Shown piece by piece: positions 25,112-31,862 of a DNA stretch of 47,732 nt; position 1 is the stretch's first letter; each line of letters opens with the position of its first letter. Source of the stretch: Bacteroidaceae bacterium (lineage in GTDB: Bacteria; Bacteroidota; Bacteroidia; Bacteroidales; Bacteroidaceae). The stretch spans positions 1-47,732 of the forward strand of contig JAFZPZ010000107.1 in assembly GCA_017552435.1 (NCBI GenBank), given 5' to 3'. The notes beneath the pieces are model-generated. The model was given only the letters and a program-made list of their open reading frames with translations, was not told where the DNA came from and ran no database searches. The position numbers were made by a program, and so were the translations under genes.

Positions 25112-25531
25112 GTAAAAATAGTTCTCACAACGCTTTCTTTGCCATTTATTGCCTCTATAGGATTATTTCTGCAACTATTAATAGTAGCAATATTTTCCCT
25201 TAATGGTAACAATATTTTCCCTTAATAGTAGCCAATCCACTTTCCGGCAGATTTCGGAACATTTCCAAATAATGTAAAGATTTTTCCATTTCTAATTTTT
25301 CACTCTCATTCTCCCCCTAAAGGGGGCCGGGGGGTCTGCATTTGTTCCCTGCCCAGAGAAAAATTTTTCCTCCGCCGAGCAGTAAAATTTTCCTGGCGAG
25401 GTAGCAAAAACCCATTTTCAGAGGCTTTTGCATGTCCTATGGAATGTAATGATTTTTCCAATATCCTTCAATCATTTCTATAACCATTCATCATTCATTA
25501 TTCATCTTCCACTTTTCATTCTTTCGAAAAA
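25112..25531. other. Gene-free region left of the VapE-like element
   Basis: No gene is supported. It contains a 22-bp direct duplication with CAATATTTTCCCTTAAT at 25188-25204 and 25210-25226, a GC-rich palindromic repeat at 25313-25336, and the motif TTCCCTGCCCAGAG near 25345 shared with the HU leader. Confidence 0.5.
25313..25336. repeat. GC-rich palindromic interspersed repeat
   Basis: CCCCCTAAAGGGGGCCGG followed by GGGGTC; nearly identical to the copy at 2956-2980. Confidence 0.75.
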
Positions 25532-25638
25532 ACACCTCCCCACCTCCCTTGACGGGACTGCAAGCCCGATAAATACTGGGGTTGACGGACGGGAGGTGTT
25601 GTTCTCAGACCTCCCTTAAACCTCCCGTCAGACCTCCC
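25532..25638. repeat. Left inverted repeat (about 107 bp) of the VapE-like element
   Basis: Matches the reverse complement of 26997-27102 at roughly four bases in five by eye. It holds ACCTCCC units spaced 11-12 bases near its inner end (ACCTCCC-TTAA-ACCTCCC-GTCAG-ACCTCCC) and two internal hairpins, one with CGGG...CCCG arms and one with GGGAGGT...ACCTCCC arms. The inner 19 bases are identical in both copies. Confidence 0.85.
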
Positions 25639-25693
25639 ATTTCAAGATGTTCAAAAATGGGGGATTTTTTTCGTGCAATTTGCGTGACAAAAC

Positions 25694-25724
25694 TTGCGAA
25701 TGCAAGATTTTTTTCGTACCTTTG
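25694..25724 (+). promoter_or_regulatory. Promoter of the VapE-like gene
   Basis: TTG at 25694-25696 and TACCTTTG at 25717-25724 with a 20-base spacer, inside the element between the left repeat and the gene. Confidence 0.65.
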
Positions 25725-25779
25725 CAGAGTTTTAAAGGACATACTATAACAACACAAAAAAACTAAAAAGAAAACAGCT

Positions 25780-26988
25780 ATGAATCAAAAGCTAATTGTT
25801 AATGGCGAGCCGATAAGGCCCTCGACTGAAGGGATGCTCGCCGCAGAAATTTTCCTTATCGAGAACTACCGTTTCCGCAGGAACATCCTGAACGGAAAGG
25901 TAGAGTTTGCAACCTTCAACGCCGTGCAACAGCCCTCGGAATACCGTCCTCTCACGGCGGAGGCGCTGAACAGCATCGTGCTGCGTGCCAAGCGAGAGGA
26001 GATCAGCGAGAACAATCCCAGGTCGGAGATTACCGAGTTCATCCGCTCGGAAGAGGTGCCCGTCTATAATCCGATAGAGGAGTTCCTGAACGGTCTTCCT
26101 GCCTGGGACGGACAGAATCATGTGGCCCGCCTTTTCGGGCGTCTGCCCGGGGTCAGCTCCGAGCAGCTGTCCTTCCTCTCCATCTGGCTCCGTTCAGCTG
26201 TCGCCCATTGGCTTCAGATGGATACGCTTCACGGAAACGAATGTGTGCCGACGCTGATCGGTCCTCAGGGTTGCGGCAAGACCACCTTCCTGCGTCGCAT
26301 GTTGCCCCAGCATCTGCGCCAGTATTATCTCGACCACATGAACCTCTCGAACAAGTTCGACAAGGAGATGGCCTTGACGAACAACCTGCTTGTCAACCTC
26401 GACGAGCTGGAAGCCATCCGTCCCAGCCAACATGCAGCCCTGAAGCAGACACTCTCGAAGAGCAAGGTGAACGGACGCCCCATCTATGGCTGCGCCCAGG
26501 AAGATCGGCCCCGTTTTGCCTCCTTTGTGGCTACTACCAACAACCCCCATCCTTTGACGGATGCGACTGGCAGCCGGCGATATATCTGCATCCAGATTCC
26601 GCAAGGACAGGATATAGATAATGTAGGGGAGATCGACTACGAGCAGCTCTATGCCCAGGTGCTTTACGAGGTTCGGGAGCAGAAGGCGCCCTATTGGTTC
26701 AACAATGTCGAGGTAGCTCGCATTCAGGAGCTTAACATCGGCTTTGCGGAGAAGAAGGATATGGCCGACATGATTTCCGTCTGCTTCCGCAAGCCGGAAG
26801 AGGGAGACTTGGTGAAAGCGATGAACAGCCAGCAAATGCTACAGGTGATTCAACGCGAATACCCAAGCCTGAAGATCAACCACAGCGCGAAGGTTCATTT
26901 GGGGCAAGCTATGAAAGAACTGGAGTTCGACCACACGGAACGCAGCCATGTGGCATATTACAAAGTGGTTCCCCTGAAGGCCGCATGA
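25780..26988 (+). CDS. VirE/VapE-like P-loop ATPase with DUF3874-like C-terminus
   Basis: 402 residues. The ATPase core has Walker A GPQGCGKTT at residues 161-169, Walker B LLVNLDEL at 203-210, a sensor-like ATTNN at 251-255 and GSRRY at 264-268, the usual order in virulence-associated E proteins. The last 60 residues (MLQVIQREYPSLKINHSAKV and on) look like DUF3874. VapE proteins in phage satellites act in replication initiation as primase-helicase partners; in Bacteroidales, stand-alone copies are common and unexplained. The gene sits alone between inverted repeats of about 107 bp, with its own promoter inside. The right repeat begins 8 bases after the stop codon, so the coding region fills nearly the whole interior. 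Confidence 0.85.
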   Translation: MNQKLIVNGEPIRPSTEGMLAAEIFLIENYRFRRNILNGKVEFATFNAVQQPSEYRPLTAEALNSIVLRAKREEISENNPRSEITEFIRSEEVPVYNPIEEFLNGLPAWDGQNHVARLFGRLPGVSSEQLSFLSIWLRSAVAHWLQMDTLHGNECVPTLIGPQGCGKTTFLRRMLPQHLRQYYLDHMNLSNKFDKEMALTNNLLVNLDELEAIRPSQHAALKQTLSKSKVNGRPIYGCAQEDRPRFASFVATTNNPHPLTDATGSRRYICIQIPQGQDIDNVGEIDYEQLYAQVLYEVREQKAPYWFNNVEVARIQELNIGFAEKKDMADMISVCFRKPEEGDLVKAMNSQQMLQVIQREYPSLKINHSAKVHLGQAMKELEFDHTERSHVAYYKVVPLKAA

Positions 26989-26996
26989 GATTAGAC

Positions 26997-27102
26997 GGGA
27001 GGTCTGACGGGAGGTCTACGGGAGGTCTTAAAACAAGACCTCCCGTCCGCAATCCCTTTATTCATCGGGCCTGCAACCCCGTTAAGGGAGGTTGGGAGGT
27101 AT
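26997..27102. repeat. Right inverted repeat (about 106 bp) of the VapE-like element
   Basis: Reverse complement counterpart of 25532-25638. It opens with GGGAGGT units 12 and 11 bases apart and contains a perfect hairpin: ACGGGAGGTCTT (27018-27029), loop AAAAC, AAGACCTCCCGT (27035-27046). No target-site duplication was found outside either repeat. Confidence 0.85.
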
Positions 27103-27247
27103 TTTTGACAGTCAACATAAAAAAGTTTTAACGTTTAACCGAGTCTACTAATTTCAGGGTTAAGCAATAAGGTAGTCAACCTAAATCAGGGAACTACACA
27201 AATAATCTTCTATAAAGGCATTTCTTTGCCAGACACCCATAGATAGC

Positions 27248-29435: not shown

Positions 29436-30800
29436 ATGGGACTATTCGGCAGAGGAAAAAGCGGGGGAATGATGAATGTCATTCGCTGCGACGAAGAAGA
29501 ATATATGGTGTGGAAATGGCGTCCAGAAGGTCAAGACGTCAACACAACAAGTAGAGAAAATAGTATTCGTTATGGCAGTAGCCTTCGTGTAAAAGATGGT
29601 GAAGTGGCAGTGTTTGTATATAAGCAAGCTAACGGCACTATGCAGGATTTTATTGAAGGGCCGTATGATGATACAATAAAGACTGCAAACTTCCCAATAT
29701 TGAGCAGTATAGTTGGCATGGCATATGGCGGTGAATCCCCTTTCCAAGCAGAAATCTATTTTATTAACCTGCAGGGCAACAACCAACTTCGATTTGTCGT
29801 GCCATATTTTGATGTTTTCGACCCACGCTTGCCTGACCATGCTATTCCAATTGCTGTTCGTGGTTCTATAACATTCAGTATTACTGATTATCGTGGGTTT
29901 GTTAAATTGAACCGATTAGTTAACTTTGACCATGATCGGTTTATGAAGCAAATTAAAGATGCTTTGGTAGAGAATGTGAAAGGTGTTGTAGTAAATGTTC
30001 CTAAAGAAATGGGGATTCCTGTAGTACAGATGGAGGGACAAGTCATCAATGTCAGCACAAAAGTTAAAGAGCATCTAAGGCCCTATTTGGAAGAAACTTT
30101 TGGTGTAAATCTTAGGGGGCTTTTTTTCTCGGCGTTGGAAATAGATAAAGACAGCCCAGGCTATGAGGAAGTATACAAAAACACAGCGGGTCATTTAGAA
30201 GAGACCTTAAATGCGCAAAAAGATGTGAATATTCAGAATCTGATAGACACCCAACGGATAAATGCTGAAAATATGGAAGAGTCACTTCGGATTCAAAGGG
30301 AAGAAGCTCAGCGTGCACAACGATTACAGACAGAACAGGCTTTCATCGGAGCACATGCTCTAAATAAGCAAACTGAAGTGTTAAGGACAGCCGCTGGCAA
30401 CTTAAGCCAAATGGGAAATGTCAATCTGGGTGGACAAGTTGGGAGTGGAGGCCTGAACCCAGCTGGTATGATGACAGGTATGATGATGGGAGGTGCTATG
30501 GGACAGCAGATGGCTGGTATGATGCAAAATTTGGGTCAACAGATGCAAGGAGTGATGAATACTCCTCCACCAATTCCTAACATTCAATATCACGTTGTTG
30601 TCAATGGTGCACAAGCAGGCCCTTTCACTTTGCCAGAGTTACAGCAAATGGCACAAAAAGGCCAGTTCACGAAGCAATCATATGTTTGGAAGCCAGGAAT
30701 GGCAAATTGGGATTTAGTTGGAAACGTGCCAGAACTTTCAATACTTTTTATTCCTGTTCCTGAATCTGTTCCGCCACCGTTACCGCCAGATTCGATTTAG
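29436..30800 (+). CDS. SPFH-domain protein with C-terminal GYF_2 domain
   Basis: 454 residues. Residues about 40-250 form an SPFH (band-7-like) domain of the YdjI type, with VKDGEVAVFVYKQANGTM and FVVPYFDVFDPRLP. A charged helical stretch (ENMEESLRIQREEAQRAQR) leads to a Met/Gly-rich segment (MMTGMMMGGAMGQQMAGMMQ) and a GYF_2 domain (YHVVVNGAQAGPFTLPELQQ ... KPGMANWDLV). No signal peptide is present, so it is probably cytoplasmic and membrane-associated. YdjI of Bacillus works with PspA in membrane stress. First gene of a set of five on the same strand with short gaps. Confidence 0.85.
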   Translation: MGLFGRGKSGGMMNVIRCDEEEYMVWKWRPEGQDVNTTSRENSIRYGSSLRVKDGEVAVFVYKQANGTMQDFIEGPYDDTIKTANFPILSSIVGMAYGGESPFQAEIYFINLQGNNQLRFVVPYFDVFDPRLPDHAIPIAVRGSITFSITDYRGFVKLNRLVNFDHDRFMKQIKDALVENVKGVVVNVPKEMGIPVVQMEGQVINVSTKVKEHLRPYLEETFGVNLRGLFFSALEIDKDSPGYEEVYKNTAGHLEETLNAQKDVNIQNLIDTQRINAENMEESLRIQREEAQRAQRLQTEQAFIGAHALNKQTEVLRTAAGNLSQMGNVNLGGQVGSGGLNPAGMMTGMMMGGAMGQQMAGMMQNLGQQMQGVMNTPPPIPNIQYHVVVNGAQAGPFTLPELQQMAQKGQFTKQSYVWKPGMANWDLVGNVPELSILFIPVPESVPPPLPPDSI

Positions 30801-30903
30801 GTTTTATCCTTGAGTTTATAGCGATATATTAGAAATTAAATTATATACAAGAAAAACCGAAGCGCTTTAAAGGCAGTAGGAAAAACTTCAAATATAAAGT
30901 ATT

Positions 30904-31509
30904 ATGGGACTTCTTTTTGAAAGTAAAAGTGAGAAAGAACGAAGAGAACGGCAAGAGTTTTGGAGTGATGTGAGTAAAGCACATGAAAAGGCTAAAGCTG
31001 ATGCAGATCGAGAACGAATGTATAATGAGCGAAGAGAAAGAGAACATCAGGAGAAACACGATGCTCTAACAATTGACCTTAATGAGCTTAAAGATGAGTT
31101 CAGTAAGGCAAAAGAAATGGAAAAACTACAAGACAAAATAGATGCCATTTTGTCCATTTATGCCAAGACTGGATCGATAATTAAGCAAGCTAATAGAATA
31201 GGAGATTTCGCTATCCCTGACCTCGTAAAAGCTTTTCGTGCGAAATTAGTGGATGCGATAGCTTTCATGTCAAAGCCTAAAAATCGTGAGGATCAGCTGG
31301 CATGTCTTCAATTGTTAACCAGTACATCAATTAAAGCGGATAAGATTAACAAATGGAAGAAAGAGCTTGCTCAAGAAGTGAGGAAACAATACTCAGATGA
31401 CTCTGAACTATTAATGTATTGTGATAAGGTATTAGGAAAAGTAATTCCTGCAGATTCCTCCATAGGTACTAAGCTTAAGATAATCATAAGTAATCTCTTT
31501 CGGAAATAA
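30904..31509 (+). CDS. Charged helical protein, unknown
   Basis: 201 residues, rich in Lys, Glu and Arg in the first 80 (KSEKERRERQEFWSDVSKAH), predicted from composition to be coiled coil, then a compact helical half (DFAIPDLVKAFRAKLVDAIA). No family was recognised. Its start MGLLFESKSEKE resembles the MGLFGRGKSGG start of the SPFH protein. Placed second in the operon, it could be a scaffold partner in the position PspA takes in Bacillus, but no PspA similarity is visible. The stop is three bases before the next start. Confidence 0.7.
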   Translation: MGLLFESKSEKERRERQEFWSDVSKAHEKAKADADRERMYNERREREHQEKHDALTIDLNELKDEFSKAKEMEKLQDKIDAILSIYAKTGSIIKQANRIGDFAIPDLVKAFRAKLVDAIAFMSKPKNREDQLACLQLLTSTSIKADKINKWKKELAQEVRKQYSDDSELLMYCDKVLGKVIPADSSIGTKLKIIISNLFRK

Positions 31510-31511
31510 AA

Positions 31512-31862
31512 ATGACTGAGCATAATTTTTTTTCTATAGACCGTCTCGTGGAGTTCGGCCTAGGGATAGGGATAGCTCAGCAAATGGTTGGGATGATGAA
31601 CCAGTACATGCAGTCAATGTATGTACCTGGTTCCATCCAATCGATGCCAAAATCTATCCCAAGCATCTACTATGTCGCTATTGATGGGAAGCAAGTAGGT
31701 CCTCTTAATGATTGTGAATTAAGTCAGCTAATAGCACATGGCAAGGTAAATAAAGAGACTCTTGCATGGGTTCCTGGTATGAATAATTGGAAGCCCATTG
31801 AACAAGTGCCAGAAATACTAAGAGTTGTTGCCTTAGCACCGCCGTCGCTCCCCAATCCATAA
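31512..31862 (+). CDS. GYF_2 domain protein
   Basis: 116 residues. A short Met-rich N-terminal part (GIAQQMVGMMNQYMQSMY) precedes a GYF_2 domain (YYVAIDGKQVGPLNDCELSQ ... WVPGMNNWKPI), the same pairing as at the end of the SPFH protein two genes upstream, so one may derive from the other. GYF-type domains bind proline-rich peptides. It starts three bases after the previous stop, indicating co-translation. Confidence 0.75.
   Translation: MTEHNFFSIDRLVEFGLGIGIAQQMVGMMNQYMQSMYVPGSIQSMPKSIPSIYYVAIDGKQVGPLNDCELSQLIAHGKVNKETLAWVPGMNNWKPIEQVPEILRVVALAPPSLPNP

Follow-up and report, generated by a model that had tools for sequence, protein, structure and literature searches.

A VapE-like ATPase gene between inverted arms in Bacteroidales, and an arm word that goes with the tail of the protein

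The arms and the gene they enclose

Positions 1 to 47,732 of contig JAFZPZ010000107.1 of a Bacteroidaceae bacterium (assembly GCA_017552435.1), called the window here, carry a gene for a VapE-like ATPase enclosed by two inverted repeats, the arms, each containing several copies of a short word. This arrangement occurs in rumen Prevotella-like bacteria, and in relatives of the element the word and the C-terminal tail of the protein change together. The left arm (25528..25638; features lie on the plus strand except where stated) and the right arm, its mirror image on the minus strand (26997..27106), are 86% identical over 111 columns, with a local alignment score of 74.5 compared to at most 15.0 in five shuffles. 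A chance origin of these arms is ruled out by this score and by a control set of 27 nrdG loci, none of which passed the arm test used throughout (a score above 25 and more than 1.4 times the best of five shuffles). An earlier note, made from the letters of this DNA, had described an inverted repeat of about 107 bp with four bases in five matching: the repeat is there, and its extent and identity had been put slightly low. The rest of its description was confirmed, i.e. 19 identical innermost bases, ACCTCCC/GGGAGGT units 11-12 bases apart in both arms (these are the inner words, in mirror order), a perfect hairpin, and only a promoter and one VapE-like gene between the arms.

ACCTCCC occurs six times in each arm, the order in one mirroring that in the other, and spacings on the two sides differ by at most one base. 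The plan is the same in both: an outer pair at a distance of 8 bp, then a word in the inverted direction, then an inner group of three separated by 11 and 12 bp. In the left arm the direct words start at 25534 and 25542 (outer pair, 25534..25548) and at 25609, 25620 and 25632 (inner three, 25609..25638), with the inverted copy at 25591; in the right arm the words are at 27094, 27086, 27020, 27009 and 26997, with the opposite-way word at 27038. In each arm a hairpin is made by the inverted word together with the first of the inner group (25589..25615 on the left), and the right-arm copy (27018..27046) is perfect over 12 bp. The left arm also contains a core motif, CCGATAAATA (25566..25575), at whose place several relatives have a GCCGATGTACAAAGGG-like sequence.

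The interval between the arms contains a promoter-like TTTCGTACCTTTGCA (25712..25726), whose promoter type we presume, and one open gene of 402 codons (25780..26988), whose stop codon ends 8 bases short of the right arm. A TTTCGTACCTTTGCA-like site is common upstream of the gene in relatives, the exact TTGTACCTTTGC being found in 27 of 81. No transposase was recognised in the window stretch, as the earlier note had stated, and no integrase among the open reading frames (ORFs) searched between and beside the arms; nor was any known RNA family or tRNA target found in the window.

The protein matches the VapE-like domain of Pfam (PF05272) with an E-value of 6.6e-35 and 121 bits, for a cut-off of 25, and has no primase or nuclease domain by Pfam. 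Residues 161-169 (26260..26286) are what we take to be the Walker A motif; residues 163-169 are invariant in 38 aligned proteins, and the ATPase motifs in general are invariant among the aligned relatives. Over almost its full length the protein has the PriRep1 fold, PriRep1 being a replication initiator of satellites. The AlphaFold model has a mean pLDDT (predicted local distance difference test) of 71 and is weak across much of residues 165-265, and near the C-terminus it places a helix (368-380) and two strands (385-388 and 391-398) in a winged-helix-like arrangement with a pLDDT of 76-89. On this model, the C-terminal region is a winged helix, residues 368-398 giving the helix and the wing.

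The arm word and the tail of the protein

Relatives were obtained by scanning one genome per species, which gave 338, and the best 80 of these 338 were kept. Five loci are cut by contig ends; 75 of the 80 have at least 60 bases on both flanks and could be tested. The arm test was passed by 71 of these 75, one of them (L078) only by way of a duplicated gene, its own weaker arms being visible when the flanks are read. If the window and 38 further loci are included, the count of passes is 84 among 114 testable loci, the 38 contributing 12. The arm-gene-arm units that the earlier note proposed to look for in related genomes are present at many loci in many genomes, and the one gene that is regularly enclosed is a PriRep1-like AAA+ replication-initiator ATPase. 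Within the window's own genus the distribution is patchy, with a VapE match (E 1e-60, a count that includes long distant relatives) in 22 of 61 genomes.

What different elements share is the layout of their arms and not the sequence. The arm match is mostly 100-150 columns long (36-164 among the close relatives, L078 aside), and in most relatives the right arm starts 0-31 bp after the stop codon and the left arm ends about 140-530 bp upstream of the start. In both arms the words are mostly spaced by 8 bp (outer pair), about 66 bp and then 11-12 bp, and in many elements the 66-bp gap holds a GCCGATGTACAAAGGG-like motif. The word itself differs from element to element (ACCTCCC, ACCTACC, ACCTAAC, ACCTCAC, ACCTCAT, CCCTCAC, ATATAAC, CTATTAAC and others).

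The content of the interval is also variable, so that the one-gene unit described by the earlier note holds for the window but not for some relatives. Between the arms there is a DUF6078 gene in seven elements (L072 and L118, checked with Pfam; L044, L067, L074, L092 and L116, by eye), an HU-HIG protein in three (L183, checked with Pfam; L173 and L181, by eye), and in L165 small ORFs without a Pfam match that look HicB/HicA-like by eye only. In eight more, DUF6078 lies just beyond the right arm (L037 and L096, checked with Pfam; L046, L064, L082, L083, L100 and L111, by eye). No transposase was recognised between the arms of relatives in the part of their ORFs that was searched.

Words were taken from the arms blind to the protein in 81 elements, of which 74 were kept and seven, lacking a credible word, were left out (L078, L182, L173, L066, L181, L183 and L163). 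Over these 74 elements, word similarity correlates with the identity of VapE residues 361-400 (26860..26979 in the window) with a Spearman coefficient of 0.367, compared to -0.04 to 0.10 for the other 40-residue blocks. A partial Mantel test gives 0.26 for residues 320-402 when the ATPase region is held constant, a value reached in none of 500 permutations, and -0.08 when the two regions are reversed. The strongest columns are 390, 368, 391, 392 and 387. When the words are set in a mechanical register, A and C being treated alike, H or N at residue 390 goes with C or A at base 5 of the word in 66 of 69 elements (five further elements carry another residue), and E or D at residue 387 goes with C or A at base 6 in 34 of 36, the remaining elements having another residue or an unclear base.

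On a tree built from residues 1-354 of all 74 proteins, 13 of 16 changes at base 5 and 19 of 23 at base 6 fall on branches where the residue changes. Permutation gives mean coincidences of 12% and 23%, with maxima of 35% and 47%, respectively. In an earlier run the figures were 13 of 13 and 14 of 19, but that run lacked seven elements with doubtful words or distant proteins, including all three base-5 exceptions. Because the changes coincide on the tree, relatedness does not account for the match between protein and word. From this covariation it is very probable that the C-terminal tail of VapE reads the word of its own arms, and the pairing of residue and base resembles a natural code of protein-DNA recognition that has changed independently many times.

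Gene-less arms and signs of dispersal

Arms also occur without a VapE gene. In the window genome there is a facing pair on contig C26; C97 carries one arm by itself, and C103 two that point the same way. The sequence just outside the left arm of the window element (25273..25527) recurs beside the C26 pair, window positions 25273-25647 and the surroundings of that pair being 72% identical. On C103 the two arms (L016, 2040-2111 and 3212-3302) are about 1.1 kb apart and have between them two small genes, DUF4160/DUF2442-like by eye; C97 shares part of this block. G026, a genome of the window's genus that is 77% complete, has two matches to the window arm and no VapE match at E 1e-60.

Copies of the L063 arm are dispersed many times in Prevotella sp. 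tf2-5 (G063) and in a close metagenome-assembled genome (MAG), G120. Among 27 loci chosen from the matches and inspected in G063, G120, G117 and G064, VapE is present at three and absent from 24, the latter being inverted pairs in 13 cases and single or same-way arms in 11. These gene-less copies share one outer end, near CAAAAACATATAACC, and many of the flanks outside it bear no relation to each other; on one side the copies often abut tandem repeats, as seen in G063, G120 and G117. Intergenic tandem repeats with units like gaaggtgccgcctcc and ttcagtcggtaacaaaacagg end at the arms of L063 and L195-L206, and by eye they stop at arms of different words as well (L202-L204).

In HUN156 (G064), all 20 places sampled with the G063 arm match best the VapE arms of G064 itself (17 match L058 and three L079) when these are compared with three arms of two other genomes, and none has a VapE gene. 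In strain khp7 (G062), the arm of its own element recurs over partial length at three further stretches and is absent from nine other genomes at E 1e-4. These own-arm matches imply that gene-less copies follow the VapE word of their own genome. That same-word arms are scattered without the gene suggests mobile DNA with no transposase gene of its own. In another genome, G080, the starts of contigs C5, C31 and C44 fall within VapE genes, with matches running from base 2, which looks as though the repeats break assemblies.

One gene-less pair, L198 of G063, is missing at the orthologous place in two relatives: the flanks are 27 bp apart in G117, compared to 649 bp, and 69 bp apart in G133, compared to 744 bp. 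In G120 the same place is occupied by 8.3 kb of other DNA. At the L063 place, most of the 50 genomes listed have the right neighbour and the left flank has a counterpart only in G120 among those compared, and in G064 a gene-less arm pair adjoins the right-neighbour gene. At the places orthologous to L196 and L249 the flanks are broken or rearranged. The earlier note would have given up the idea of a mobile unit if every relative had the gene at the orthologous locus, either armless or with arms at one fixed position, and no empty site existed, which is not the picture we found. Its minimal mobile element stands in part: units at many loci, dispersed gene-less copies, a pair missing in two relatives and an ATPase that very probably reads the arms speak for it, but presence and absence are seen for a gene-less pair only.

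Several observations weigh against a family of mobile elements and must be set beside the above. The arm test is failed by four close relatives (L026, L045, L056 and L084) and by 26 of the 38 further loci; these 38 are mostly more distant and have at most 1.5 kb of flank, and the 26 include the fairly close L113 (66%) and L179 (74%). The comparison of presence and absence covers a gene-less pair and no gene-bearing element, that of the window included, and at the L198 place the gap differs in other respects too, leaving no clean empty site. Around the nrdG loci of 28 relatives (up to 1.5 kb on each side) there is no element, and since the downstream neighbourhood differs, with synteny lost, in all 28, they give no verdict on presence or absence behind nrdG. 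For some elements the place is the same in several species (L067/L072/L092, L063/L070 and L037/L038), so that part of the spread is vertical. Among 78 gene-bearing elements, 14 have the same direct word of at least five bases at both outer ends, which is no clear sign of target-site duplication: swapping the right flanks in 50 trials gives 7.7 on average and 15 at most. No nuclease or recombinase was found within the element, and gene-less pairs could also come from deletion. With these points counted, we still consider it likely that arms and gene form a dispersing element, and we lean, less firmly, to the view that the window element belongs to a Bacteroidales family of small repeat elements that are probably mobile.

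L067, L072 and L092, from three species, share a position at the 3' end of a single gene, which by eye is typA; the right flank is conserved and the left flanks differ. Elsewhere in the window, 29436-31862 encodes an SPFH/Band-7 protein with a GYF_2 domain, and a second GYF_2 protein is found two genes further.

A possible mechanism, its rivals and known systems

At this point the mechanism may only be sketched. The initiator ATPase would assemble on the words of both arms, open the DNA there and recruit host replication proteins, and the stretch between the arms would thereby be copied; the copies would settle at new intergenic places by means of host or other unlinked enzymes. Gene-less pairs would be non-autonomous riders of the same ATPase, as REPINs are of RAYT (REP-associated tyrosine) transposases, minus the nuclease. 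Whether the copying is driven by the ATPase we regard as evenly balanced. More tentatively still, the whole could be a bacterial DNA that spreads by itself without a nuclease or transposase of its own, in which an initiator ATPase reads two terminal inverted arms by a simple residue-to-base code, copies what lies between them and multiplies itself and gene-less pairs, and in which joint changes of word and protein split it into separate families within one genome. If this were true, bacterial mobility would need no element-encoded DNA-cutting enzyme, an origin-reading ATPase and inverted terminal origins being enough, and both the widespread, little-studied VapE/DUF3874 genes of Bacteroidales and the dispersed repeats of rumen Prevotella-like genomes would be accounted for. 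Whatever the mechanism, the apparent residue/word code can be tested directly in vitro.

One alternative is a stationary module, in which the ATPase binds the arms for control of its own gene, for defence against phage replication or for chromosome organisation, the arms having spread by ordinary duplication and recombination. The elements that stay at one place across species, the recurrence of companion genes such as DUF6078 and the position of an arm just behind a gene at L198, the place read most closely, would all agree with it. We nevertheless find it unlikely: the promoter-like site lies outside the arm, copies with a common outer end have many unrelated flanks, and the L198 pair is present in one genome and missing in others.

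Another possibility is that the arms are repeats of the REP/BIME type (repetitive extragenic palindromes/bacterial interspersed mosaic elements) moved by a Y1 (RAYT) transposase encoded elsewhere, VapE being a passenger or regulator. Arm pairs do resemble REP doublets, Y1 matches occur in five of ten genomes, and a weak Y1 gene (264-1271 of L096; PF01797, E 1.3e-4) lies beside the VapE element of L096. However, there is no PF01797 match in the window genome (G000), G120, G062, G106 or G117, an absence that is not proof in drafts. Among these genomes, G120 holds many dispersed arms and two VapE elements, and G062 is strain khp7, which is not labelled as a MAG. The two Y1 loci of G063 lack both of the G063 arm types tested, and the residue-by-residue tracking of arm word and VapE protein is also at odds with a passenger, so that we think this explanation improbable. 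Even less credit can be given to the idea that a phage satellite or prophage lost its integrase and packaging genes and left this remnant, since the satellite-initiator fold and the frequency of VapE proteins in satellites are outweighed by a two-arm layout shared by about 70 of 75 relatives, which is unlike decay, by invariant ATPase motifs, and by the lack of any relative of at least 60% identity in phage or plasmid records, only five distant ones occurring in viral contigs. Equally little can be given to a miniature inverted-repeat transposable element (MITE) that moves with the help of an unlinked DDE transposase able to recognise the arm ends: inverted repeats at the termini, copies in intergenic places and gene-less forms fit, but target duplications are not clear (some families make none) and the arm words go with the VapE protein.

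Among known systems, those close to a dispersing ATPase element include the initiators (Rep, PriRep1) of Staphylococcus aureus pathogenicity islands (SaPIs) and phage-inducible chromosomal islands (PICIs) with their iteron origins. Each SaPI Rep is specific to the iterons of its own island. The likeness lies in the PriRep1 fold over nearly the full length and in short direct words paired with an initiator; the element differs in being about 1.6 kb with one gene and no integrase or packaging genes, in having its words at both ends rather than at one origin, and in its dispersed gene-less copies. The alpha protein of phage P4 with ori1/crr is another relation, but the window protein has no primase domain, the element is not a phage, and its arms are inverted and terminal. 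Short human-gut records named 'Bacteriophage sp.' (5-15 kb) contain relatives 30-37% identical, possibly larger versions.

BT4734-like primase-helicases of Bacteroidales, from the archaeo-eukaryotic primase (AEP) families (PMC5862659), have VapE-like and DUF3874 domains and, in annotated records, DUF6078 or HU neighbours; the window protein differs from them in having no BT4734-like N-terminal primase domain. Two long relatives show matching repeats in their flanks (L118, 619 aa, with BT4734-like_N PF08800, 70 columns; L116, 607 aa, 40 columns), and most long proteins examined have no arms within the flank compared. For Bacteroides and Parabacteroides, none of three loci exceeds the threshold: L273 scores 25.6 against 19.4 shuffled, L272 16.5 against 16.8, with GGTAGATGT words visible by eye, and L271 shows none. 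The BT4734/DUF3874-type proteins at these three loci adjoin HU or DUF6078 genes and may be larger versions.

With REPINs/BIMEs and their RAYTs (PMC3116915), the element has in common that inverted doublets are dispersed between genes and that their sequence goes with a single linked gene family; here that family encodes an AAA+ ATPase instead of a Y1 nuclease. REPs are given as 20-40 bp (PMC3733652), compared to arms of mostly 100-150 bp with several words. The BrickBuilt MITE of Porphyromonas gingivalis is likewise intergenic and dispersed, with inverted ends and tandem repeats, but its ends are IS5-family-like and its 23-nt repeats are internal (PMC4596501); that paper nowhere uses the term 'vire'. 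In the open-access library that was searched, no paper with DUF3874 or DUF6078 and no title or abstract opening describing such an element was found. The parts are known, namely VapE/PriRep ATPases, iteron reading and REP doublets. In that library we found no account of a nuclease-free ATPase flanked by inverted terminal arms that it would read and that also spread without it, and we rate this kind of element, whatever its mechanism, as new.
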